Virus record (IMG/VR): IMGVR_UViG_3300022200_000023
Span: 31,531 to 95,530 of that record
DNA length: 64,000 bases
Direction: 5' to 3' (one strand)
Source of the DNA: a virus
The notes beneath the pieces were generated by a model, which searched no databases, was not told the DNA's origin, and was given only the letters and a program-made list of their open reading frames with translations. The first letter of the stretch is position 1. Each line of letters opens with the position of its first letter. A program made the position numbers and the translations under genes. Of this stretch, positions 14,326 through 64,000 are shown in pieces.

Positions 14326-14588
14326 GAGACTACGGTCTCCCGGATGTAGAACCCACGGGGACCCCCGAGTGGGAGCCTCTGGAAGGAGACGACGCACCGC
14401 CGTGCCCTAACTGCGGTGCCCGGCTTTGCAAGGTGAAGGTCGCAGTCAAGCTGGCGCTACTACGTGGCGGAGCAGGGACGGCCCACTACTTGGGGTGCCC
14501 TGCGTGTCCCTGGGCCAGCCCCAGCACTGCTGTCTCGGACAGAGCTAGCCCTACAAGCGGACCCCAGCCTCCAACAACTGAGAGTTAA
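14304..14588 (+). CDS. Small zinc-ribbon protein
   Basis: A 94-residue protein overlapping the helicase end by 22 bases. It has two CxxC-type pairs (CPNCG and CPAC) flanking a basic stretch (CKVKVAVKLALL), a zinc-ribbon pattern. The C-terminal 20 residues are Ser/Pro/Thr-rich and probably disordered. Its last 38 bases overlap the convergent gene at 14551. Function not recognised; a role helping the preceding helicase is a guess from context. Confidence 0.6.
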   Translation: MDDTKSLRDYGLPDVEPTGTPEWEPLEGDDAPPCPNCGARLCKVKVAVKLALLRGGAGTAHYLGCPACPWASPSTAVSDRASPTSGPQPPTTES

Positions 14589-15228
14589 GCAAACTACGCA
14601 TCGTACTGACGTAGTTGCCTACCTCCATAAGAACCCTGGCGTGCACGCACGCGGCGTCATCCTCGTCGTACGGGCACTCCTTGTGAGTGCCTAGGAGCTC
14701 CAGGGTTCTTTTCTTTAGTTCCTCTTCTCGGCCCACCTTCGGGACCATGGTGTCCAGCGCATCCTGTGCAAACGCCAGCTCAGGAGGAACAATCACCAGA
14801 CCGCTTGTAGCACAAAGAGCAGCGGCGTAAACAGCGGGCTCATCCCCGTAAAACTGCGGCCCACTCCACTCTTCGTAATGCTGGGCCATGAGGCGCATCT
14901 CCACTACCGTCCAGCAGAGCTCACCAACCTCTGTGCCCGTGATGGACTCTGGCTGCGCAACCCGCCCATTGAGCGTCTCAGAGAGGTTCTCCAGCACGCG
15001 AGCGTCCCACAGGTAGGCAGGGTTAGCCCTGACCGCTGTGACCGCTAGGAGGCGGTCCAAGGCGGCCTCGTCGGGGGGCAGGCAGCCCTGGTCCTCCAAG
15101 AAGACCAAGAGGCTATCTGTCTCCCACGCAGCATGCGCCCCGCCCGTAAGCTCGTCACAGGCAAGGCTCTGCACTAGGGCCAGTGTGTCGCCCGAAGAGA
15201 GGAGGGATTTGGCTTTTTCTAGGAGCAC
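14551..15228 (-). CDS. Unrecognised phage protein, probably alpha-helical
   Basis: A 225-residue, acidic, mostly helical protein with no signal peptide, membrane segment or catalytic motif that I recognise. Notable pieces are SLACDELTGGAHAAWETDSLL and a cysteine pair near the C-terminus (ECPYDEDDAACVHA). It is the last of three minus-strand genes that abut each other (15228 shared), so it is probably made with the two probable virion proteins upstream. Confidence 0.6.
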   Translation of the reverse strand: MLLEKAKSLLSSGDTLALVQSLACDELTGGAHAAWETDSLLVFLEDQGCLPPDEAALDRLLAVTAVRANPAYLWDARVLENLSETLNGRVAQPESITGTEVGELCWTVVEMRLMAQHYEEWSGPQFYGDEPAVYAAALCATSGLVIVPPELAFAQDALDTMVPKVGREEELKKRTLELLGTHKECPYDEDDAACVHARVLMEVGNYVSTMRSLLNSQLLEAGVRL

Positions 15229-31454: not shown

Positions 31455-33746
31455 TTATCCACCGAATTCACCCCCGCCGAAGGGAGCACCACCAACCCCG
31501 CCGCCTCCGCCGACAGGGACAACCTCCACCTCAAGAAGGTCATCTACGACCTCCCCAACGAGGTCCCACAGCGAAGCCTCGTGAGCAACGAAAGGATATG
31601 TGTGCGCGGGACGCGCCTCAATCAAAGTTCCTACTATAGTCGCCAGATCCTGCGGATACGGGGAAGTGCTGTTGTTGATCAGCACCTCAAACGAGTTCCA
31701 CTTCAGGAACTTGTCCAGCAGCAGATACGCCACCGCGTGGTGTGTCTGTTCCCCGAACCGCAGAGAGCAAGTCGACGTGACCTTACCGACAATATCATAG
31801 TCTACGTCATCTAACTCTTCATAGCGGCCGTCCACCAGAAAGCTGGCTTCCCCCGTAAACGCGTTAGGTGACAGGAGCCAAATGCTGTGTCGGCTGATGA
31901 CTGCGTCATCAGTACCCAGGTTCCAAAACGTGGTCCCGATCAGAAGGTTGTCAGTTTGCGGGTCTATGATCGACAGGAAGTCAACGTTGTTGTCATAGAG
32001 CACTGCGCAGGGGGTCCCCGGATCCGCAACCAAACTCTCCGCGGTCACACCATCGGAGTTGGCTCCGTAGTACATCCCAAGATCGCCGTAATACGCCTGG
32101 TACCCGTAGTACCCGTACCGTACGGGGAATAGCGAAGTCTGAACCCGCCGCCTCTCTGCGCCCAAACCCTCCACCAAGGTGGGCGGAATAGTAGTGTTGT
32201 GCCACCACGTAGGGGACTCTAGGTAGTCCGTGACCTGGTGCGCGTCCGCTATGGTCTGGAAAGCACTGAGTGGCGTGTCCACCGCTGCATTGAGCGTAAA
32301 CTGCCCGGCAGTACCTTCCGCCAGGACAACCGTGGCCGCGCCCTCGGTGTGCTCAATCCGCCACGAAAGACCGCTAGACGCAGCTCCCGGGTCGTCCGCC
32401 AGCTTGATCTGCAGCGCACTGTCGTACAAGAACTCAATCTCGTACTCATCTAGCCCTACGACCACCTTAGCGGTGTTGTTGCACCCTAGCTCCGCAAAGC
32501 TAGCGGGAGTGCCTGTGTCCGTAAGCCACACTGTGTCTGTAAAGATGGTGTACGCCGTCCCGTCTCTCGGGACCTCGTAGTACTCACGAGCACCAAAGAT
32601 GATTTCCGCAGTTAGCTCGGTGCCAGCAGGCAAAGTGTACGTTTCCGTGGTGCCCGGGATGACCGTGAGTACACCTTCGAGCAGTTCGTAGTTGTTTGTG
32701 ACGACCACGACGCCTCTGCTGGTCGTATCTACCGAGGTAACCAGCTCTCCGGTAGCACGAACCAGCGGGAACCCGCTCATAGCCCCCAGAGCTGCCTCGA
32801 TGTACGGCAGCACCGGCCCACGCACGTAGAGGTTCCACAAGCCGCGTAGTAGCGCTCGGTACGAGTCTGTAGACACCGTTTTCTCTAAGGAGAACGGGTG
32901 CCCGTACATCTCGTAGAGGCTGTAGTAGTCTTTTTCCGGTTTCGGCGCCCACCCAGATAAGGCTCGTACGCGCGTAGATACGGTCTCTACATCAACAGCC
33001 AGCGGATCGGAGACGACGTCGTCGTACTGCGGCGACACCACTCCGGCAGTCAGCTGTCCCGACGCGGTAGACCCCAGCTCTGTTCTAAGGGACACTTGAG
33101 CATACGAAGCAGCGACCGCTGACACCTTGCCGTAAGAGGTCGTACCGTCGTCGTGGCTAACCTTGAGCCAATCATCCACACTGACTACAGCAGTCCAGTC
33201 TTCTACGTGTGCAGAAGTCACCCGCAGAGCTAAGTCATAAACCTGTGTACTAAGCCCAAAGCCCGGTACTGGGTTCCCTGCCGTGGTCCAGGAAAACGGG
33301 TCCTTATAGAAGAGTAGAAACCAGCCATCTGTGGGAACGGTTGGTTCGTAAAATCGAAGCTCTACTAGGCGGGCAGTGTCGTTGGCAATGAGCTCGAAGT
33401 CGACGTCGCGCTCCAAGATTGCCTTAGGGTCTAAGGCTACGTTCTGTATGTACGCTAAGTCCCTAATATCGTTAGGAAGTTCCCACAGCCAGTACGTAGT
33501 GTCCTCGTCCGTTGTTGGCACTACTCGGAACTGGTCCTCAAAGAGGATCATCAGCTGCCAAGGAGCCACTTCCGTCAGCGGGCAATCTTGTAGGGAGAGC
33601 CGCATTACCGATAGCAGCATCCGCTCGTAAGACGCCCCTGCCGCCTCGAGCACAGCCTCGTGGCCTCGCTCGATAAGCTTTACGTCCGCGAAATGCCGCA
33701 GCCAGAAGTCAGAGACCCCCCGCAGCAGCGTAGTGCCGACAGACAT
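31455..33746 (-). CDS. Large baseplate/tail protein with Gly-rich C-terminus
   Basis: A 763-residue protein directly downstream of the baseplate J-like gene, sharing its last base. The N-terminal 150 residues are helical (LIERGHEAVLEAAGASYERML); the rest is beta-rich. The C-terminus is a Gly-rich tail (GGGGGVGGAPFGGGEFGG). The position after gp25-like and J-like genes suggests a baseplate wedge or tail-fibre attachment protein. The exact family is not recognised. Confidence 0.55.
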   Translation of the reverse strand: MSVGTTLLRGVSDFWLRHFADVKLIERGHEAVLEAAGASYERMLLSVMRLSLQDCPLTEVAPWQLMILFEDQFRVVPTTDEDTTYWLWELPNDIRDLAYIQNVALDPKAILERDVDFELIANDTARLVELRFYEPTVPTDGWFLLFYKDPFSWTTAGNPVPGFGLSTQVYDLALRVTSAHVEDWTAVVSVDDWLKVSHDDGTTSYGKVSAVAASYAQVSLRTELGSTASGQLTAGVVSPQYDDVVSDPLAVDVETVSTRVRALSGWAPKPEKDYYSLYEMYGHPFSLEKTVSTDSYRALLRGLWNLYVRGPVLPYIEAALGAMSGFPLVRATGELVTSVDTTSRGVVVVTNNYELLEGVLTVIPGTTETYTLPAGTELTAEIIFGAREYYEVPRDGTAYTIFTDTVWLTDTGTPASFAELGCNNTAKVVVGLDEYEIEFLYDSALQIKLADDPGAASSGLSWRIEHTEGAATVVLAEGTAGQFTLNAAVDTPLSAFQTIADAHQVTDYLESPTWWHNTTIPPTLVEGLGAERRRVQTSLFPVRYGYYGYQAYYGDLGMYYGANSDGVTAESLVADPGTPCAVLYDNNVDFLSIIDPQTDNLLIGTTFWNLGTDDAVISRHSIWLLSPNAFTGEASFLVDGRYEELDDVDYDIVGKVTSTCSLRFGEQTHHAVAYLLLDKFLKWNSFEVLINNSTSPYPQDLATIVGTLIEARPAHTYPFVAHEASLWDLVGEVVDDLLEVEVVPVGGGGGVGGAPFGGGEFGG

Positions 33747-56563: not shown

Positions 56564-56647
56564 GCGAGGGTGGCGGAACTGGTAGACGCACTGGATTTAG
56601 GTTCCAGCGACTTTAGTCATGGGGGTTCGATTCCCCCCTCTCGCATA
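56564..56647 (+). tRNA. tRNA-Leu (anticodon TAG)
   Basis: The full cloverleaf with long variable arm is present: acceptor GCGAGGG with CTCTCGC (one G-U), anticodon loop TTTAGGT, and T-arm GGGGG-TTCGATT-CCCCC. It decodes CUA. CCA is not encoded. Confidence 0.92.
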
Positions 56648-56653
56648 CTTAGC

Positions 56654-56733
56654 CCGGGTGGTGGAACTGGTAGACACCGCTGACTTAAACTCAGCCGCAG
56701 AAATGCGTGTGGGTTCGATCCCCGCCCCGGGCA
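56654..56733 (+). tRNA. tRNA-Leu (anticodon TAA)
   Basis: Acceptor GCCCGGG pairs with CCCGGGC. The anticodon loop is CTTAAAC and the T-arm GTGGG-TTCGATC-CCCGC, with a long variable arm. It decodes UUA, rare in GC-rich genomes. CCA is not encoded. Confidence 0.92.
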
Positions 56734-56737
56734 CTAA

Positions 56738-57007
56738 ATGACCTTCATTCTCCTAGCACCTGACAATAAAAGAGAACTCGGCGCAGTCCAGGTCCTTAGG
56801 GACAGCGACACTCACCACGTCCTGGCGCTGCGCTTTCATTTAAACCACCCGCCCAGGGTGGTCACCTACTCGCAGCAAAACCTCAAAGACCTACTAGCTG
56901 CTCAAGACATTGCTGCTATAATCGCAGCTGACGCTCTCAGCCTGGGGGGCTACGAGCACGCTCCAAGGATTCTAACCTTGTCTGATACGCGCGTAGAAAC
57001 GCTATGA
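56738..57007 (+). CDS. Small unrecognised protein between tRNAs
   Basis: An 89-residue protein beginning four bases after tRNA-Leu (TAA), possibly translated from the processed tail of that transcript. FILLAPDNKRELGAVQVL and RVVTYSQQNLKDLL suggest an alpha/beta fold. ATGA overlap with the next gene. It contains one TACGCGCGTA site. Function unknown. Confidence 0.5.
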   Translation: MTFILLAPDNKRELGAVQVLRDSDTHHVLALRFHLNHPPRVVTYSQQNLKDLLAAQDIAAIIAADALSLGGYEHAPRILTLSDTRVETL

Positions 57008-57231
57008 TGACGCACTGGGAGCTGGCGAGGCTAGCGGGGCTGTGGCTGGAAAAGCTGGCCACCGAGCACCCGGAAAAACTCGACGAGTGCGTTGCTATCA
57101 CCATCCACGACGACTACACTGCTGACATTGCTTTCAAGGTACGTTGGTCAGGGCCCAAGAAGGTCGCCCCGACCCCGGAGCCGAAAGAAACAGAAGAAGC
57201 GAGTTCTGTGACAACTGATGAAGGCGAGTAG
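57004..57231 (+). CDS. Small helical protein overlapping tRNA-Val
   Basis: A 75-residue protein (MTHWELARLAGLWLEKLA...) with an acidic Thr/Glu-rich C-terminus. Its TAG stop is within the acceptor/D-arm junction of the following tRNA-Val (57222). So coding and tRNA share ten bases, and cleavage of the tRNA will remove the stop codon from the message. Function unknown. Confidence 0.5.
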   Translation: MMTHWELARLAGLWLEKLATEHPEKLDECVAITIHDDYTADIAFKVRWSGPKKVAPTPEPKETEEASSVTTDEGE

Positions 57232-57293
57232 CTCAGCGGTAGAGCAGCTCTTTTACGTGGAGCTGGTCGCAGGTTCGACCCCTGTCTCGCCTA
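57222..57293 (+). tRNA. tRNA-Val (anticodon TAC)
   Basis: Acceptor AGGCGAG/CTCGCCT, D-arm GCTC/GAGC, anticodon loop TTTACGT, T-arm GCAGG-TTCGACC-CCTGT. Decodes GUA, the codon used in most TACGCGCGTA sites (Thr-Arg-Val). CCA is not encoded. Confidence 0.9.
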
Positions 57294-57300
57294 CAACTAT

Positions 57301-57371
57301 GCCAGTCGAACAGCAGGTAAAACCCAGTGAGGAAGAGAGCTGTCTAGCACTGCTGGGTGCTGGCTTCTTTT
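57301..57371 (+). terminator. Hairpin terminator between tRNA-Val and tRNA-Ala
   Basis: GCCAG (57301) pairs with CTGGC (57360-57364), ACCCAG (57322-57327) pairs with CTGGGT (57353-57358), and CAGTG/CACTG lies inside. TTCTTTTA follows. Whether it ends transcription or acts as a processing element between tRNAs cannot be decided. Confidence 0.45.
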
Positions 57372-57372
57372 A

Positions 57373-57445
57373 GGGGGATTAGCTCAGTTGGGAGAGCAGG
57401 AGCTTTGCAAGCTTCAGGTCGTCAGTTCGATTCTGACATCCTCCA
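57373..57445 (+). tRNA. tRNA-Ala (anticodon TGC)
   Basis: Acceptor GGGGGAT/ATCCTCC contains the G3-U70 wobble pair that identifies alanine tRNA. Anticodon loop TTTGCAA, T-arm GTCAG-TTCGATT-CTGAC. Decodes GCA. CCA is not encoded. Confidence 0.92.
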
Positions 57446-57455
57446 CATCTTCTAT

Positions 57456-57528
57456 TGCGGGTTAGAAAAATCAGGTACTTCACCTGGTTCATACCCCGGA
57501 GATCTGGGTTCAAATCCCAGGCCCGCAA
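57456..57528 (+). tRNA. tRNA-Met (anticodon CAT), elongator-like
   Basis: Acceptor TGCGGGT/GCCCGCA, anticodon loop TTCATAC, T-arm CTGGG-TTCAAAT-CCCAG. T1-A72 pairs, so it is not initiator-like. The anticodon stem has one T-C mismatch (29-41) and the D-stem has an A-C mismatch, so it is somewhat degenerate. CCA is not encoded. Confidence 0.78.
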
Positions 57529-57891
57529 CAACAATTCTTTTCCTGGTAAAAGAAACTGCCAGCAAAGCACTGCTGGCACTAGGGCCGCGCAATGAGCGCT
57601 CGCGTTGGACAGAATCCGGTGACGTCCGCGACCCCGCTGTTTACTCTTGGCTTTCTGCCCACCAAGAACCTGGCAGCCGTGAGGCCCAGGCGGTGAACGA
57701 TGCGAAATTCCGAGTGGGTGAGAGGCCCACATCTTCTTCTAAGAAATAGCTGGCCGTTGTGGAGACAATCTCCAGGGAGGAGTAGCGTCAGTTCCCGGAT
57801 TAAGCTCCCGGGGGCGGGACCTTGACCCTTCGGCTGGCGGCGCCTTCTTTAGGCTTGCCCGTCTCATTTTAGATAGGTTAATTTCCACCGC
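57529..57891 (+). other. Mostly non-coding stretch between tRNA-Met and the MazG-like gene
   Basis: Bases 57550-57749 have an open frame of protein-like composition (KALLALGPRNERSRWTESG to RPTSSSKK), but no ATG, GTG or TTG start lies in it after the tRNA. It may be a remnant, use a rare start, or not be a gene. GCCAGC/GCTGGC (57558-57578) and CCCGG/CCGGG (near 57800) can fold. No tRNA was recognised here. Confidence 0.35.
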
Positions 57892-58236
57892 ATGACTTTC
57901 GACGAATACCAGGAGGTAGCCAGCACCACCGCTCGCTACCCAGGCCGCCTTCAGCACAACCCCACCTACCCTGTTCTCGGTCTAAACGGCGAAGCTGGGG
58001 AAGTGGCGGAGAAGTTGAAGAAGTTGTTCCGTGACACGAACTGGACTCCGGGCACCCCGATACCTCACGACGTAAGGGACCTGCTCATCAAAGAGCTGGG
58101 AGACGTACTGTGGTACCTCTCCGCCTGCTGCGACGAGATCGCTGTTACTTTAGATGAAGTGGCGCACGTCAACATCCAGAAGCTCCTCTCCAGGAAGCAA
58201 CGCGGCGTCATCGGAGGCAGCGGCGACAACCGCTAA
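57892..58236 (+). CDS. MazG-like nucleotide pyrophosphohydrolase
   Basis: A 114-residue all-helical NTP-pyrophosphohydrolase. GLNGEAGEVAEKLKKLF supplies the ExxE part and KELGDVLWYLSACCDE the ExxD part of the Mg-binding motif of the MazG fold. Phage MazG proteins are proposed to alter nucleotide pools or (p)ppGpp in the host. It lies between two tRNA blocks and is followed after four bases by tRNA-Gln. Confidence 0.85.
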   Translation: MTFDEYQEVASTTARYPGRLQHNPTYPVLGLNGEAGEVAEKLKKLFRDTNWTPGTPIPHDVRDLLIKELGDVLWYLSACCDEIAVTLDEVAHVNIQKLLSRKQRGVIGGSGDNR

Positions 58237-58240
58237 CCCT

Positions 58241-58311
58241 AGGGGCGTCGTCTAACGGTAGGACGCAAGGTTTTGGTCCTTGTTACGTGGGTTCGAATCC
58301 TACCGCCCCTG
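58241..58311 (+). tRNA. tRNA-Gln (anticodon TTG)
   Basis: Acceptor AGGGGCG/CGCCCCT, D-arm GTCT/GGAC, anticodon loop TTTTGGT, T-arm GTGGG-TTCGAAT-CCTAC. Decodes CAA. CCA is not encoded. Confidence 0.9.
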
Positions 58312-58312
58312 C

Positions 58313-58386
58313 CCTCACGTAGCTCAGCTGGATAGAGCGACGGCCTTCTAAGCCGTGGGTCCCAAGTTCGAATCTTGGCGTGAGGA
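58313..58386 (+). tRNA. tRNA-Arg (anticodon TCT)
   Basis: Acceptor CCTCACG/CGTGAGG, D-arm GCTC/GAGC, anticodon stem ACGGC/GCCGT with loop CTTCTAA, T-arm CCAAG-TTCGAAT-CTTGG. Decodes AGA. One base separates it from tRNA-Gln. Confidence 0.93.
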
Positions 58387-58394
58387 CTAGCCAA

Positions 58395-58467
58395 TCCGCC
58401 TTAGCTCAGTTGGTAGAGCAATCGGCTGTTAACCGATTTGTCGCTGGTTCGAGCCCAGCAGGCGGAG
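58395..58467 (+). tRNA. tRNA-Asn (anticodon GTT)
   Basis: Acceptor TCCGCCT/AGGCGGA, anticodon stem ATCGG/CCGAT with loop CTGTTAA, T-arm GCTGG-TTCGAGC-CCAGC. The only tRNA in the set with a G34 rather than a U34 or C34 anticodon. Confidence 0.93.
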
Positions 58468-58476
58468 CATTCTTTA

Positions 58477-58549
58477 GGGCCTATAGCTCAGTGGTGAGAG
58501 CGGCCGGCTCATAACCGGTTGGTCCCAGGTTCAAGTCCTGGTGGGCCCA
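58477..58549 (+). tRNA. tRNA with CAT anticodon, probably Ile2 (lysidine type)
   Basis: Acceptor GGGCCTA/TGGGCCC, anticodon loop CTCATAA, T-arm CCAGG-TTCAAGT-CCTGG. C4-G69 and C5-G68 in the acceptor are the pairs that E. coli TilS uses to recognise tRNA-Ile2. Together with the separate CAT tRNA at 57456, this suggests it reads AUA after lysidine modification, rather than AUG. Confidence 0.85.
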
Positions 58550-58561
58550 AGTAAAAACACC

Positions 58562-59335
58562 ATGGGATACGACATGAGCTTGGTAAACCCGAGCGAAGAA
58601 CTTCTTCGACTCGAGCAGGACAGCAAGCGCGAATTCCAAGCGCTGGTAGCCGCCCGAGATATCCTAAAGACCCCAGAAACTAAAGCCATTTTCCAGGACG
58701 CTATGGACTACTGGAACAACTGCTACTGGGGCACTAAGCGCGGCAACCCCGCGCCTGTAAAGCCGGACTACGCTGACACTGCTAGCACTGAACTCTTTGA
58801 AAAGGTCTTAGCTGCGCAAGAAGCGGTCATCGCGCACAGTAACAAGGGCACGCGCGATCCTACCTACTTCCGCCTGAACGTCTGGGGGATGGGTAAGTAC
58901 CGCGATGTGATGGAAAAGCTAGGGATGATGTACTTAGGCCGGTACACGACACCCAGCTTCGCCGCGTACCCCGGTGACGAGCACTTCGCTGGAGACTACA
59001 CTGAACCCATCACCGACGAAGGCCGTAAGTGGCGCGAACACCAGGACATGTGTCTGCACTACAGTCCCCCGGAAGCTGAGGGCCTATTGCCCGGCCACAA
59101 GTTTGGCTCCAATGACGGATGGCACGTCACTACCGACGAGTGCGCTGCTGCGCTGAGGGTTGCCGCGGCACACGGGTGGGACGCAGACAATCCTCCCAGC
59201 GAAGAGATGAAAAAGGTGTCTGGCCCCTTCAACGAGATGGGCGTTCCCGACGCTGATGAGAACACCTACTGGTGGGCGTGGTTGGGCTTCCTGAAGAACG
59301 CGCGTGACAACGCGGAAGGGTTTCAGGTTTACTGA
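58562..59335 (+). CDS. Unrecognised protein beginning MGYDMSLV
   Basis: A 257-residue protein. The N-terminus (MGYDMSLVNPSEELLRLE) and the YFRLNVWGMGKYRDVMEKLGMMYLG segment recall hypothetical proteins found in bacteria and phages, but the function is not known to me. It is acidic, with many aromatic residues. It starts 13 bases after the tRNA-Ile2-like gene and is followed after about 100 bases by tRNA-Lys. Confidence 0.6.
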   Translation: MGYDMSLVNPSEELLRLEQDSKREFQALVAARDILKTPETKAIFQDAMDYWNNCYWGTKRGNPAPVKPDYADTASTELFEKVLAAQEAVIAHSNKGTRDPTYFRLNVWGMGKYRDVMEKLGMMYLGRYTTPSFAAYPGDEHFAGDYTEPITDEGRKWREHQDMCLHYSPPEAEGLLPGHKFGSNDGWHVTTDECAAALRVAAAHGWDADNPPSEEMKKVSGPFNEMGVPDADENTYWWAWLGFLKNARDNAEGFQVY

Positions 59336-59433
59336 GCCCTGAACGGTTCGCATCCTACGGGGGACCTGGCGGTGATACCTCGTAGTTGGTCGGGGTAACC
59401 CAGCATCGTCTGGGCTATAACCGCCATCCCTTT

Positions 59434-59509
59434 GGGGCATTAGCTCAGTTGGTAGAGCAATTGACTTTTAATCTCTTGGTCCAGGGTTCGAGTCCCTGAT
59501 GCCCCACCA
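59434..59509 (+). tRNA. tRNA-Lys (anticodon TTT) with a mispaired anticodon stem
   Basis: Acceptor GGGGCAT/ATGCCCC, D-arm GCTC/GAGC, anticodon loop CTTTTAA, T-arm CAGGG-TTCGAGT-CCCTG, and an encoded CCA. The anticodon stem is ATTGA against TCTCT: pairs 28-42 and 29-41 are mismatched. The elements otherwise match tRNA-Lys, so it may be weakened, decayed, or adapted to escape cleavage. Confidence 0.85.
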
Positions 59510-59540
59510 AGAAAACGCGTTACAAGCGCAACAAGTTCGT

Positions 59541-59560
59541 CTAAGATTCTGGCATAAGTA
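59541..59560 (+). promoter_or_regulatory. Promoter-like motif CTAAGATTCTGGCATAAGTA
   Basis: Same core TCTGGCATAAGT as at 54681, with one extra T. It lies about 25 bases before tRNA-Thr, consistent with a promoter driving that tRNA and the terminated unit that follows. Confidence 0.5.
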
Positions 59561-59583
59561 GGTGTCCTAGGACTCTTGCTTAT

Positions 59584-59656
59584 GCTGGGATAGCTCAGTT
59601 GGTAGAGCAGCTGATTTGTAATCAGCCGGTCGTCAGTTCAAGTCTGACTCTCAGCT
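59584..59656 (+). tRNA. tRNA-Thr (anticodon TGT)
   Basis: Acceptor GCTGGGA/TCTCAGC, D-arm GCTC/GAGC, anticodon stem GCTGA/TCAGC with loop TTTGTAA, T-arm GTCAG-TTCAAGT-CTGAC. Decodes ACA. CCA is not encoded. Confidence 0.93.
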
Positions 59657-59770
59657 CTCAACCCCACAACTACGTCCCCTCCCCCGAAGAGCACGGCCAG
59701 CCACCGGGGGGCGTAATAGGGTTAAGGTGGCTTACGAAACCCACAGCTAGGGTAGTCGTGCAGGCTGACT

Positions 59771-59812
59771 GGGGGCGGTTAACTGTGGTGGGTTAACCGC
59801 CCCCTTCTTTTT
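59771..59812 (+). terminator. Strong rho-independent terminator ending the tRNA unit
   Basis: GGGGGCGGTTAAC (59771-59783) pairs perfectly with GTTAACCGCCCCC (59792-59804), followed by TTCTTTTT. It lies between the plus-strand tRNA unit and the convergent minus-strand gene ending at 59811. Confidence 0.92.
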
Positions 59813-60206
59813 AGCCCGTAAAGAGGCCCTTGAGGTGGTCCATGCGGGACATCTCCGGCTGGCCGCCCATGGCAGCGCCCGCGCCCATAAGGCCCGCACC
59901 ACCCAGCGCAGCAGCGCCGCCTAGCGCTCCAGCCTGCCAGGGGTTGGCCCTGGCCGCCTGCCACATGTCCTTACCAACACCCGCCAGGTAATCACCATGC
60001 CCCATGTTCTGCATGGCCTCCGCGCCCCCAGCCAGGTGCTGCGTCAGCTTCCGCTGATCCCGGAAAGTCGACATGGGCTTCCCCGCCCAATCTTTGATCG
60101 ACTTACCCATCCCCGCCCAGTTGATGGCGATCTTCTCCTGCCCCTCAGCAAGGCCAAAATCAATCAGAGCCTGGGCGCACCCAGCGTCATACGCTTCCTT
60201 GAACAT
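59811..60206 (-). CDS. Probable virion protein with KEAYxxG N-terminus
   Basis: A 131-residue protein. MFKEAYDAGCAQALIDFG matches the start of the 15228 gene product closely. The C-terminal half is a Gly/Ala-rich hydrophobic segment (GALGGAAALGGAGLMGAGAAMGG) that could insert in a membrane. It overlaps the preceding gene by 20 bases. Probably a virion or ejected membrane-active protein; the function is not known. Confidence 0.6.
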   Translation of the reverse strand: MFKEAYDAGCAQALIDFGLAEGQEKIAINWAGMGKSIKDWAGKPMSTFRDQRKLTQHLAGGAEAMQNMGHGDYLAGVGKDMWQAARANPWQAGALGGAAALGGAGLMGAGAAMGGQPEMSRMDHLKGLFTG

Positions 60207-60438
60207 CCTCTACACCTTTCCAAGAGCTGCACTTGTAAATACCGCTAGCAGCGAAATCATAGCGCACGCAGTAGCCCTGGACACCTGCTCTTACGTCAAA
60301 ATGTTTGCAGGACATGCAACTCTGCGCCGGGTCGGGAGCGGGTCCGTAGTTAGGAGCGTCCACCATGGAGCTGGTTTTCTCGATGTACTCGAGTAGAGCT
60401 CTGGCTGCTCCGCGGCCGTAGGCTTCTTTGATGCTCAT
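60187..60438 (-). CDS. Small four-cysteine protein with the KEAY N-terminal motif
   Basis: An 83-residue protein. SIKEAYGRGAARALLEY is the N-terminal motif shared by several genes here. CMSCKHF, GYCVRYDF and KCSSW form a four-cysteine pattern (CxxC...C...C) suited to an Fe-S or zinc site, similar to small phage proteins with CxxCxxF...CxxY. It overlaps the large 60435 gene by four bases. Confidence 0.6.
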   Translation of the reverse strand: MSIKEAYGRGAARALLEYIEKTSSMVDAPNYGPAPDPAQSCMSCKHFDVRAGVQGYCVRYDFAASGIYKCSSWKGVEDVQGSV

Positions 60439-63400
60439 GATAACAGCTCCTTGAGCTCGTCTACTGCAGTGAGTTCTTTGTCTGCGGTGAGGCCATGCCC
60501 TGCAAGCCCGATACCCCCAGCGGTGAGTAGGGTCCCGAGGCCCTTTGGCATTCTACCAAGGTAGTCAACTAGCGCAGACAGCTGCCGCGGAGTCACATTT
60601 CGTGTCTGCTTCAGAGCCTCCAGTAGACCCTCGGTCTTACGAACCTTATTCAGAGCACTCATACCTTCACGAGTCTCTCGACCTAGCACCCTCCGCGCAT
60701 AGTCAGCGTTAGGAACCACATCTTTAGGCTGTGCAAGGTACTCTCGGATGACCTCCGGCAGATCTCTGCGGAGAGCCTTACCCTGCTCATTGTTTAAAAT
60801 GAGGTTGGCTCCGCCTTGCGTAAACGGAAGAGACGCCATCCCCGCTAGCCCCAGCCCGCCAGCAACTTCGGGCAGAGAGACGTCCTCCGGGTTAATCTTG
60901 CTCGCACCATACACAGCACCGGCGCCCCCTGCCGCAGCTGCCCCTCGCAGTAGGTTGGGTGCGTGCTTTAGCCACTTTTGGCGACGAGCCTGCCTAGCTA
61001 GTAGCTTATCCGCCGACGCCTCAGCGGCTTCCTGGCTTAAGCCTTTCTCCAGTTCTCGGTCAATAGCGATCTCTCGCAAAGCCTCTTGGCTGGGACGGTA
61101 CTCAGTAATGGTCTCGTACATATCGTCCGAGCCAATATCTGACGGGAGGATGGTACCAATAGACTTGCGCTGTCGGGTCGCAGAATCTCGGTCCATCAAT
61201 CCACCCGGGGCCGTGGTGCAGATACCCCCTTCACAATTAGCCTCTCGGGCTGCCTGCGCCAACGTCTGATTACTGCGCCCTGTAAGCTTACCGTAAACCT
61301 TAGCTACAGGGTCAGGTACAAAAACTTCCCGCAGCCCAGCACGGATAGCCTTGGGGTTGTTGTAGTGCAGCGCACGTCCTTCTTCATCCGTGAGGGCGTT
61401 CATGAATGCTTTTTGATCCGGCGCCAATCGGTCCGAGAATCCTTTGCGCGCCTCAGCCGCTCCCCCAGTCCGGTCTTTGCGTCGCAAGATGCGAACGTTG
61501 CGATCCGGGCTCATGCCGGACTCGGACATCCGACTGATAAGATTCTCCCGCCCCTCTAACGTGTCAATGGCGTTATACCGATCGTACATGAGGTTAGAGT
61601 GGATAAAGTCGGACCCACCCATAAACCCCTTCATCATGTCCTGCTTGTTCCCCGATAGCCCGGGCCCAGAAAGGACAACGTCCCCGGGCGGCAGTTGCCG
61701 AATGAAGGCATCCCAGTTTTCAGTAGTACTGCCGGGTGTGTGAAGGGGCGCACGCTTATTAGTGATTGCAGCTAGAGCCGGCATCCCTGCTGCCGCAGCC
61801 ATCAGGCTGTTGCGGATAGCGTGAGACTCTTCGTCCTCCGAAGTCTTCTCTCGGTCAGCCACTAACCCGTGCAGCCCAAGTCCCGCGCCTCCCGCCATGA
61901 GTGCAGCACCCGGCTTCTTCAGATGCTTAGCTACGTCTAGTAGGTACGTACTGTACGCTGGGGCGATACGCTTAGCCCCTCGTAGCGTCTCAGCTAGCCC
62001 TCGGTGCTTTTTTAGGTCCTGTAGCGCGTAGGCGTTAGCCATGGTCTCGTCACGCAGAACCCGAAGCGCTCCCTTGAGAGTGTCCCTCTTAGGCGCTGCG
62101 TTCATGTCCGTGCGGATAGCCGCCCGAATCTGATCATCCAGCGTTAGAGCCCCAGACCTGCGGGCTCGATTTTCAAAATCTCGAGCGTGTCCTAGCTCGT
62201 GCGCCAGGAACTCCGGGGTGTGCGCCTGCACTGCCTGCCTACGCGAGTAGTCGTAAGTCGGAGACTCAACCCCCCGGTTCATGGGATGGTTGCGATCTGC
62301 CGTAACCCCGAATCCCCCTTCGGGGCTCACATGTACCAGCCCTCTATCGTTGATGATCTTGCGACCGAAGTCCTGCATGTCAGCTTCGACCTTGGCCTTA
62401 GCCTGATCTAAGCTGAACCCTTCGGCCATGATGTCCCGAAGGCGCTTATCGCCGTACTCATTGATCTGCTTGCGGTAGTTGTTTACCGCAGCCATGCTGA
62501 GTGGCTTGTGAAGGAAGGGCACGGCCCCTGCTGCGCCTAACCCAAGCCCTGCAGCTACCTCGGGTACAGAGACGTCTTCCGGGTTTACCTTGGACAGGCC
62601 GTAAATAGCTCCAGCACCGCCCAGACCGATGGCTCCGCGAGCGATGTTAGGCGCGTGCCGCAGCAACTTGTCTCGTCGCAGCGCAGATCGCTGCTGCTTT
62701 GCTACCTCAGCAATCGCGTCTTCTGTGGACATGCCGGCTGCGCGCAAATCACGAACAGCACGCGCCTTAGCTTCCTCTGGGTCTGGCGTGTACTCGAGCA
62801 CCGTCTCCAGGCTGGGGTCGCTGGCAATGTCTCTAGGCAACAGGGAGCTGAGGCTCTTGTTCTGCCGAGCCTTGGACGCCGGGTCCATAGTCCCACCAGG
62901 AAGAACTGTGCAAACCCCCCCGGCGCACCGAACCTCCTCGCCTAGTTGACTAGGAGTCTTAGGCTGCTTGTTGGTAAGCTTCCCCCACAGCTTAGCAACG
63001 GGGTCTGGCACCAAGATTTCTCGCAGCCCACTCTTGACAGACTTGCCTACGCTGTACGTCGGAGCATCTCCGTGCTGGCCGTACATAGACTGTAGGAACT
63101 TAGCTCGGTCCTGCTCCCCTGTCAGGGACGCCATGGCCGGGTCTTTGTGCCGTAGGATCCGCACTCGGCGCTCAGGATTGATACCCGCGTCACCTATGTC
63201 ACTCATGACATGGCGTCGATCTGGCGCAATGTCCAGAACCTTGCCGGGTCCCCACCCCACGTTAGCGTGGGTATAGTCAGCAGACCCTTGAGTCGCCGCC
63301 ACTAGATTGCGGATAGGGTCACCTTTGTCAGACCCCGAGAGGACGATATCGCCTGGCTTCAAGTTAGCCGTTATGTAGTCAAAGTTGTGGGTGCTGGTAC

Positions 63401-63935
63401 CCGGCGTGTGCAGCGGAGCCCGACGATTAGTAAGCGCAGTAACCGCAGGCACCCCCGCCGCTACCCCCATGAGGGAGTTGCGTAGCGCGTGGGACTCCTC
63501 ATCTTGCTGCCAGGGCAAGGCAGCACCCGTCTTCTCCCCCTCGCGACCTTTGCTGTACTGAACCCCTGCTCCGATGCCACCAATGCCCGCGCCGATACCT
63601 AGTTGCGCCAAGAAGGTGTTATACCCAGACTGCGCTGCGGGCTGCATAGCCCTAGCCACTTCAGGTGGGAGGTGCCCTTTGTCTAACTGCTGAAGAGGAG
63701 TCAAGGCGGACATGTCCCCCGCCTCAATAGCCTCCCGGACTTTCCTTGAGGCACTGGGAGTACCGAGGTTTCCGCCAGTCTCCATCACAGTAGACACTGG
63801 CGTCTGCCCAGTAATGAACTCCAGAGAGTCCTTCTCCGGCCGTGTAAGCTTACGACTGTAGCCTTTAGGAGCGCGAGCTGCTTCATCCAACAGCTTAGTA
63901 GCCCGTCTCCCATGATAAACTCCTCGGAAGGGCAT
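60435..63935 (-). CDS. Large virion protein: duplicated papain-like domains flanking an HELGH metallopeptidase
   Basis: A 1166-residue protein with an internal duplication of about 550 residues. Each copy begins DEESHA(L/I)RNSLM (near 143 and 698) and has RAPLHTPG and a PGD(I/V)VLSG strand. His follows (THANVGW near 222; IHSNLMY near 777), then a Cys pair (CAGGVC and CEGGIC, near 340 and 900), and it ends NPEDVS(V/L)PEV. The PGD...H...C order fits permuted NlpC/P60 (papain-like) hydrolases. Between the copies, FLAHELGHARD near 577 is an HExxH metallopeptidase motif. The ATG at 63935 has GGAGG eight bases upstream, but the frame stays open to the window edge. Possibly an ejected protein that alters host wall or lipids. 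Confidence 0.65.
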   Translation of the reverse strand: MPFRGVYHGRRATKLLDEAARAPKGYSRKLTRPEKDSLEFITGQTPVSTVMETGGNLGTPSASRKVREAIEAGDMSALTPLQQLDKGHLPPEVARAMQPAAQSGYNTFLAQLGIGAGIGGIGAGVQYSKGREGEKTGAALPWQQDEESHALRNSLMGVAAGVPAVTALTNRRAPLHTPGTSTHNFDYITANLKPGDIVLSGSDKGDPIRNLVAATQGSADYTHANVGWGPGKVLDIAPDRRHVMSDIGDAGINPERRVRILRHKDPAMASLTGEQDRAKFLQSMYGQHGDAPTYSVGKSVKSGLREILVPDPVAKLWGKLTNKQPKTPSQLGEEVRCAGGVCTVLPGGTMDPASKARQNKSLSSLLPRDIASDPSLETVLEYTPDPEEAKARAVRDLRAAGMSTEDAIAEVAKQQRSALRRDKLLRHAPNIARGAIGLGGAGAIYGLSKVNPEDVSVPEVAAGLGLGAAGAVPFLHKPLSMAAVNNYRKQINEYGDKRLRDIMAEGFSLDQAKAKVEADMQDFGRKIINDRGLVHVSPEGGFGVTADRNHPMNRGVESPTYDYSRRQAVQAHTPEFLAHELGHARDFENRARRSGALTLDDQIRAAIRTDMNAAPKRDTLKGALRVLRDETMANAYALQDLKKHRGLAETLRGAKRIAPAYSTYLLDVAKHLKKPGAALMAGGAGLGLHGLVADREKTSEDEESHAIRNSLMAAAAGMPALAAITNKRAPLHTPGSTTENWDAFIRQLPPGDVVLSGPGLSGNKQDMMKGFMGGSDFIHSNLMYDRYNAIDTLEGRENLISRMSESGMSPDRNVRILRRKDRTGGAAEARKGFSDRLAPDQKAFMNALTDEEGRALHYNNPKAIRAGLREVFVPDPVAKVYGKLTGRSNQTLAQAAREANCEGGICTTAPGGLMDRDSATRQRKSIGTILPSDIGSDDMYETITEYRPSQEALREIAIDRELEKGLSQEAAEASADKLLARQARRQKWLKHAPNLLRGAAAAGGAGAVYGASKINPEDVSLPEVAGGLGLAGMASLPFTQGGANLILNNEQGKALRRDLPEVIREYLAQPKDVVPNADYARRVLGRETREGMSALNKVRKTEGLLEALKQTRNVTPRQLSALVDYLGRMPKGLGTLLTAGGIGLAGHGLTADKELTAVDELKELLS

Positions 63936-64000
63936 AGCAGCGCCCTCCAGGAAACCGCGCCCGAGACCCCGCCAACCCCCCTTAGCTCCACCCTTGAAAC

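Follow-up and report, generated by a model that had tools for sequence, protein, structure and literature searches.

A 2222-residue polyvalent-type phage protein with a tandemly duplicated module and predicted permuted NlpC/P60-like cores

What kind of protein does the giant gene at the end of virus record IMGVR_UViG_3300022200_000023 encode, and what might its repeated parts do? We analyzed a 64,000-nucleotide stretch of this record (positions 31,531 to 95,530; hereafter, the window), in which a first-pass annotation made from the letters alone had described a minus-strand open reading frame (ORF) as an internally duplicated virion protein with two papain-like hydrolase copies and an HELGH peptidase. 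Judged by its proteins, the phage is distantly related to Salmonella phage Arash and encodes a multisubunit RNA polymerase of its own. Our reading, held with slightly more confidence than doubt, is that the ORF encodes the C-terminal half of a 2222-amino-acid protein of the polyvalent type, probably made late, packaged, and ejected, and that each repeat contains a circularly permuted NlpC/P60 core.

The gene, its duplication, and the zincin-like domain

The annotated ORF (60435..63935, minus strand) is present, with an ATG start and 1,166 amino acids, but the first-pass annotation missed that the contig end cuts the gene. The frame remains open as far as the window edge (63998). Since the 95,530-base record ends with the window, ORF 60435-63998(-) is 5'-truncated. 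A second record, IMGVR_UViG_3300025687_000001 (G001; 160,861 bases), carries the same gene with 100% protein identity and extends further, and the junction of both records was identical across the 3,000 bases compared. There the complete gene (L002:4896-11564) begins with GTG and encodes 2,222 amino acids (protein P0003). Residue numbers throughout are those of P0003; the window covers residues 1036-2222, the C-terminal 53%, as 1,187 codons and the stop (60435..63998).

This part of the protein consists largely of two tandem copies that are 39% identical over 427 amino acids (blastp E 2e-99), a sequence similarity far above chance. Copy 1 (residues 1201-1756; 61836..63503) comprises a DEESHA segment, the permuted-papain-like core, a Gly-rich hydrophobic segment, the zincin, and a Gly-rich segment; copy 2 (residues 1757-2222; 60438..61835) repeats this module but lacks the HEXXH half of the zincin. 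Every motif from which the duplication was originally recognized is present in both: DEESHA(L/I)RNSLM at residues 1201 and 1757, RAPLHTPG at 1228 and 1784, GD(I/V)VLSG at 1251 and 1807, a conserved His at 1279 and 1835, and CxGG(V/I)CT with Cys at 1393/1398 and 1957/1962. The HELGH motif, which had been placed between the copies, does occur at residue 1635 but sits within the tail of copy 1, and copy 2 lacks it. The second zincin half of copy 2 can still be aligned (score 127), whereas the HEXXH half is absent. The simplest history compatible with these sequences would be tandem duplication of a papain-like core/Gly-rich/zincin/Gly-rich unit, followed by loss in copy 2. Hydropathy scanning located Gly-rich hydrophobic segments at residues 1163-1181 (63561..63617) and 1513-1531 (62511..62567).

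The predicted HELGH peptidase is supported by homology and by its motif pattern. The zincin-like metallopeptidase domain (residues about 1590-1730; 61914..62336), found in copy 1 only, is homologous at the sequence level to small zincins of the same phage group (phmmer E 1e-5 to 2e-3 with a six-sequence set); homologues lie at four related loci, and small zincins are encoded in this phage and its relatives. HELGH (residues 1635-1639; 62187..62201, codons checked) is followed by A-R-D, which gives the HEXXH-x2-D pattern of phage-type polyvalent metallopeptidases, in which an Asp lies three residues past HEXXH (PMC5512222). The HEXXH and the downstream Glu both align with the related-phage homologues: Glu1686 (62046..62048), a candidate third zinc ligand in RDETMANA, falls on the EE..A of those zincins. 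The small zincins of Arash-related phages (e.g., G001 14354-14959) share HExGHA...E(E/T)xxA and Gly-rich segments with this domain; they are stand-alone ORFs of ~200 amino acids, whereas the zincin here is embedded in a duplicated module. Pattern scans of viral contigs and GTDB genomes for zincin relatives gave either no match or this phage alone.

Predicted permuted NlpC/P60 cores in both copies

From profile comparisons and modeling, we consider it likely that each copy holds a circularly permuted NlpC/P60 (YiiX/LRAT-like) core, at residues about 1245-1440 in copy 1 (62784..63371) and about 1801-2005 in copy 2 (61089..61703). Small alignments were built for the YiiX/YebB class and for Bacillus phage G gp212-type proteins, the two partly overlapping. 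By hhalign, the two-copy alignment scored 28.8 against the YiiX class (E 0.0016; best of 200 column shuffles, 22.5) and 29.3 against the gp212-type proteins (E 0.0011; best of 200 column shuffles, 21.1), with unrelated control alignments at 15-16. An earlier, smaller alignment (22.9, E 0.019) also exceeded all 200 shuffles. With a pooled profile, hmmsearch placed copy 1 at rank 1 and copy 2 at rank 3 among about 490 reported sequences, mostly shuffles.

Both copies present the order GD-His-Asp-Cys, as the catalytic order of permuted NlpC/P60 enzymes requires, the Cys being a candidate only. The GD strand and the His are in register with the YiiX-class family in both copies, and the C-terminal LPRDIASDPSLETV stretch aligned onto the family's TPxxL motif. 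Candidate catalytic His1279 (63267..63269, codon checked) aligns with the invariant His of YiiX/gp212 and has an identical counterpart in His1835 of copy 2 (61599..61601). The candidate polar third residue, Asp1291 (63231..63233), matched in copy 2 by Asp1847 (61563..61565), lies at or near the YiiX 'EA' column and may be the equivalent of the YiiX Glu. The candidate nucleophile would be Cys1398 or Cys1393 in CAGGVC (62910..62927), corresponding to Cys1957/Cys1962 in CEGGIC (61218..61235). This assignment, if it is either Cys, is uncertain because CxGGxC has two invariant Cys residues and because MAFFT puts another, Pro-containing segment, not CxGGxC, at the YiiX Cys column. In common with known permuted NlpC/P60 proteins (YiiX/YebB, LRAT, the gp212 group, and BcPPNE 3kw0), the copies show GD(I/L/V), His, a candidate Cys, and (T/L)PxD(I/L) in order. 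They differ in that the His-Cys stretch is much longer, CxGGxC replaces hC(S/T)E, and the core lies within a giant multidomain chain; sequence identity is 14-18%.

The structural check proposed in the first-pass annotation yielded only low-confidence models. AlphaFold2 models of the long and core forms, built on the two-copy alignment, reached predicted local distance difference test (pLDDT) values of only 35 and 37. When the pLDDT 37 model (predicted template modeling score, 0.41) was submitted to Foldseek, the best PDB matches were three chains of 3kw0 (BcPPNE, the permuted enzyme of B. cereus), and a fourth came at rank 5 (E 0.3-0.7), making four of the top five among 350,542 PDB chains.

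A number of these and other results weigh against the assignment. The models are of low confidence, and a Foldseek E of 0.3 is not significant by itself; Foldseek against a viral library found nothing significant, and the longer model gave only unrelated matches. The hmmsearch bit scores of the copies were only 2-8, and with a phage-only profile the copies ranked 8 and 3, with a shuffle beating both. Pairwise Smith-Waterman and single-sequence hhalign comparisons with E. coli YiiX were not significant. Neither Pfam (PF05708 was silent), NCBIfam, nor PHROGs recognized the copies, and no relatives of the copies were found in viral contigs, GTDB genomes, or 47 related records, so that conservation rests on two paralogous copies. 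The two papain-like hydrolases first proposed have moderate profile-profile support over shuffles, together with weak 3kw0 matches.

Such a record of poor models, missing family matches, tiny single-sequence scores, and absent close relatives would also fit a chance resemblance, in which the repeats would be a lineage-specific structural or membrane-spanning module whose His and Cys were kept for other reasons. The Pro-containing segment at the YiiX nucleophile column points the same way, as do weak matches elsewhere: residues 1362-1413 matched the class C beta-lactamase AmpC at E 0.004. We rejected that family, taking the match as chance, since it falls outside the catalytic serine region; moreover, the AmpC SxxK serine is not kept, the SxxK-like SVGK of copy 1 being NNPK in copy 2. 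We nevertheless judge chance resemblance unlikely, given that the profile-profile scores beat every column shuffle for two YiiX-class alignments with the same register in both copies, that an LPxD motif follows downstream in the expected order, and that 3kw0 dominates the top of the PDB ranking. Somewhat less doubtful is the idea that only copy 1 is an enzyme and copy 2 is degenerate or regulatory. Copy 2 has lost the HEXXH half of its zincin, and the segment past its His (HSNLMYDRYNA) is less like the YiiX pattern than that of copy 1; on the other hand, the candidate His, Asp, and both Cys residues are identical in the two copies.

If both copies are indeed permuted NlpC/P60 enzymes, their likeliest substrate, by analogy, would be acyl bonds of lipids or lipoproteins, because characterized permuted members act on lipids. 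Tox-Act1, a permuted member, is a phospholipase (PMC12994826), and YiiX/LRAT relatives bind acyl groups or transfer them (PMC7387801).

A polyvalent-type protein and its possible processing

The half of P0003 beyond the window carries further enzyme domains. Pfam identified a LigD 3'-phosphoesterase (LigD_N; residues 848-919, 6.5e-11) and a GNAT domain (residues 721-798, 4.4e-6), both above the curated cutoffs, and solved LigD phosphoesterase domains matched residues 844-958 at 3.6e-9. Residues H850, H858, D860, R862, H897, and Y901 align with the LigD phosphoesterase H/H-D-R/H-Y pattern, and we take them to correspond to the catalytic positions of P. aeruginosa LigD. This pattern is kept as in the bacterial LigD domain, but the fusion to ligase and polymerase is not. 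By eye, and as motifs only, we also noted a Pol-beta-type NTase motif (GSTGRG...KDLDLLVV) from residue 205, an ART-like motif at 494-520, and a P-loop-like GDVAAGKTT at 649. An ART-like identity for residues 490-620 was tried and set aside: alignment to the ART-like region of a related record (G007) was not significant (p 0.07), and the region is kept as a motif.

The phosphoesterase recurs in 12 of the 47 related records, where it is fused to primase-like (n=5), helicase-like (n=2), or ART-like (n=1) domains. In all five primase-type fusions and in the ART-type one it follows an EFAPGI-like linker, which P0003 also has. These recurrent fusions with primase-like domains in uncultivated relatives suggest phage-borne end processing of the nonhomologous end-joining (NHEJ) type. 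The primase-like domains fused to the phosphoesterase (L098, L099, L097, L100, and L101, from G008, G014, G015, G019, and G025) resemble AEP/LigD-Pol by motif, and in these five records a K-x-A/helix motif comes after the fusion.

Because the other half of the protein bears these further, unrelated enzyme domains, the three hydrolases of the first-pass annotation proved an incomplete set, and we place P0003 among the polyvalent proteins. GNAT, Pol-beta NTase, ART, and zincin domains are stock parts of injected polyvalent proteins (Iyer, Burroughs, and Aravind 2017, PMC5512222). Several unrelated biochemical activities (GNAT, LigD phosphoesterase, zincin, and papain-like cores) are predicted in one chain, and the contig encodes homologues of Arash-type capsid, portal, terminase, and tail proteins. 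P0003 thus shares with that group its many disparate domains, including the zincin with HEXXH-x2-D, the GNAT domain, and Pol-beta-NTase-like and ART-like motifs, as well as its structural-gene context. The catalogued peptidases are zincin, assemblin-like, DD, and LonC types, none of them papain-like, and the text of the catalogue makes no mention of LigD (PMC5512222); P0003, in contrast, has a predicted papain-like core twice and a LigD-type 3'-phosphoesterase. If correct, this reading adds a probably lipid-acting cysteine-enzyme class, and likewise an NHEJ-type DNA-end-processing domain, to the enzymes that phages may inject, in a phage group that includes cultured Salmonella and Vibrio phages.

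A short tripeptide motif also recurs at junctions in this protein. In virion-region ORFs, K-[T/E]-[A/S] was seen 50 times versus 20.7 expected (z 6.5), compared with 10 versus 9.9 in plus-strand genes. Among annotated structural proteins of Arash, the whole motif was weakly enriched (25 versus 17.7 expected) and KEA alone was enriched (12 versus 4.6). Across the group, nearly all correctly read rows of the major capsid protein have KEA (rarely KQA/KLA) at one N-terminal position, and G001 7216-8988 matches a head maturation protease family. In P0003 itself, a scan with a matrix of hand-chosen sites ranked KTS at 640, 961, and 1753 far above the rest, three sites versus 0.57 expected from shuffles, an enrichment that is only suggestive within P0003 alone (KT[AS] p 0.086). 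The first precedes the P-loop motif, the second falls where the phosphoesterase ends, and the third (residues 1753-1755; 61839..61847), between copy 1 and copy 2, is the best K-x-[A/S] match in the protein; KTG (1191-1193; 63525..63533, codons checked) occupies the same position ahead of copy 1. A 2,348-amino-acid protein of a related phage record (G010; L120:4476-11519) has seven KT[A/S] versus 1.85 expected (p 0.006) and a Gly-rich segment, repeated exactly, with EKTASAQ on its flanks. It resembles P0003 in its giant length, its repeated K-T-[A/S] junctions, and its Gly-rich segments, and it adjoins tail genes; unlike P0003 it carries HNH, PAP2 phosphatase, and FMN reductase domains, and the two have no sequence similarity.

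The placement of K-x-[A/S] at junctions in giant proteins suggests, from sequence patterns, cargo polyproteins cut by the head protease. More broadly, and only tentatively, Arash-related phages might link the enzymes that they eject into concatenated cargo polyproteins, whose contents would be exchangeable and specific to each lineage. The head protease, which would trim the major capsid protein at K-[E/Q]-A, would also cut this cargo at K-[T/E]-[A/S], and the cargo here would include a duplicated permuted papain-like, lipid-acting enzyme that is not in the 2017 catalogue. If true, K-[T/E]-[A/S] is a testable rule for recognizing trimmed virion proteins and for locating the cuts in giant cargo proteins. 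Many small virion-region ORFs also open with a helix motif, FLKQAYEAG..., ending in K-x-A. Small ORFs of this kind (M..FLKQAYEAG...ALKEAG-like helices, then K-x-A) were observed in L004, L006, L008, and L011 of G001 and at 59811-60438 of the window; their starts resemble the major capsid N terminus and are a candidate packaging or propeptide signal.

For P0003, only the domain content, duplication, and gene context are direct observations. The protein would be made late alongside the structural proteins and then packaged, presumably in the head; the chain might be cut at the K-T-S junctions, by the head protease or the embedded zincin, into separate enzymes. Packaging and ejection with the DNA into the host are steps that we infer. 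The Gly-rich segments may aid membrane passage; the papain-like cores and zincin could then act at the membrane or on proteins, the cores on acyl bonds of membrane lipids or lipoproteins, while the N-terminal enzymes would act in the cytoplasm.

Two other accounts of the protein bear on this scheme. The duplicated module might instead be a processing device, with the papain-like cores and the zincin cutting their own polyprotein or other head proteins during maturation. Polyvalent zincins have been proposed to process their own chain (PMC5512222), K-T-S/G sites stand just ahead of each copy, and this phage, like its relatives, has a small zincin gene clustered with its head genes. We find this account rather doubtful, since the permuted NlpC/P60 enzymes characterized so far work on lipids, since a head-protease homologue is already encoded separately, and since K-x-[A/S] also occurs in capsid and other virion-region proteins of phages without the copies, which points to the head protease. 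Alternatively, the protein might never be packaged and might act as a soluble takeover factor with several functions, synthesized during infection inside the cell. An opposite-strand tRNA cluster stands between the giant gene and the nearest tail genes. We regard this as quite improbable: the gene runs in the same direction as the structural genes, two small ORFs with the virion-type N-terminal motif come next, and the chain has Gly-rich hydrophobic segments and K-T-S junctions.

The phage and the neighboring genes

The kinship with Arash rests on several genes. The RNA polymerase beta/beta' fusions share 34-37% identity with their counterparts in Salmonella phage Arash and in Vibrio phages D69, D148, and D181. 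The phage also encodes proteins homologous to the Arash major capsid protein (43%), to its portal and terminase, and to several of its tail proteins. Alignment scans with capsid and polymerase revealed many uncultivated relatives. Minus-strand structural genes with Arash homology flank the giant gene on both sides, on the same strand as it. The multisubunit RNA polymerase consists of two proteins, a 1,448-amino-acid beta/beta' fusion (L005:389-4735) and a 593-amino-acid part (L004:16896-18677), a layout common to Arash and the three Vibrio phages.

Directly downstream of the giant gene, with a 4-base overlap, is a minus-strand ORF of 83 amino acids bearing the group's N-terminal motif MSIKEAYGRGAARALLEYIEKTS (60187..60438), followed by one of 131 amino acids with MFKEAYDAGCAQALIDFGLAEGQEKIA and a Gly-rich C-terminal half (59811..60206, also minus strand). 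Eleven plus-strand tRNA genes cluster at 56564-59657 of the window, adjoining the giant gene. Just upstream of it, on the opposite strand, L009:3866-6327 of G001 contains ORFs that by eye are response-regulator/receiver-like. In L009-L010 (G001, 114-139 kb), small plus-strand ORFs follow one another over a long stretch and repeatedly show the N-terminal pattern '(A)L..LG(W/Y/F)'; they appear to be an expanded family of paralogues.

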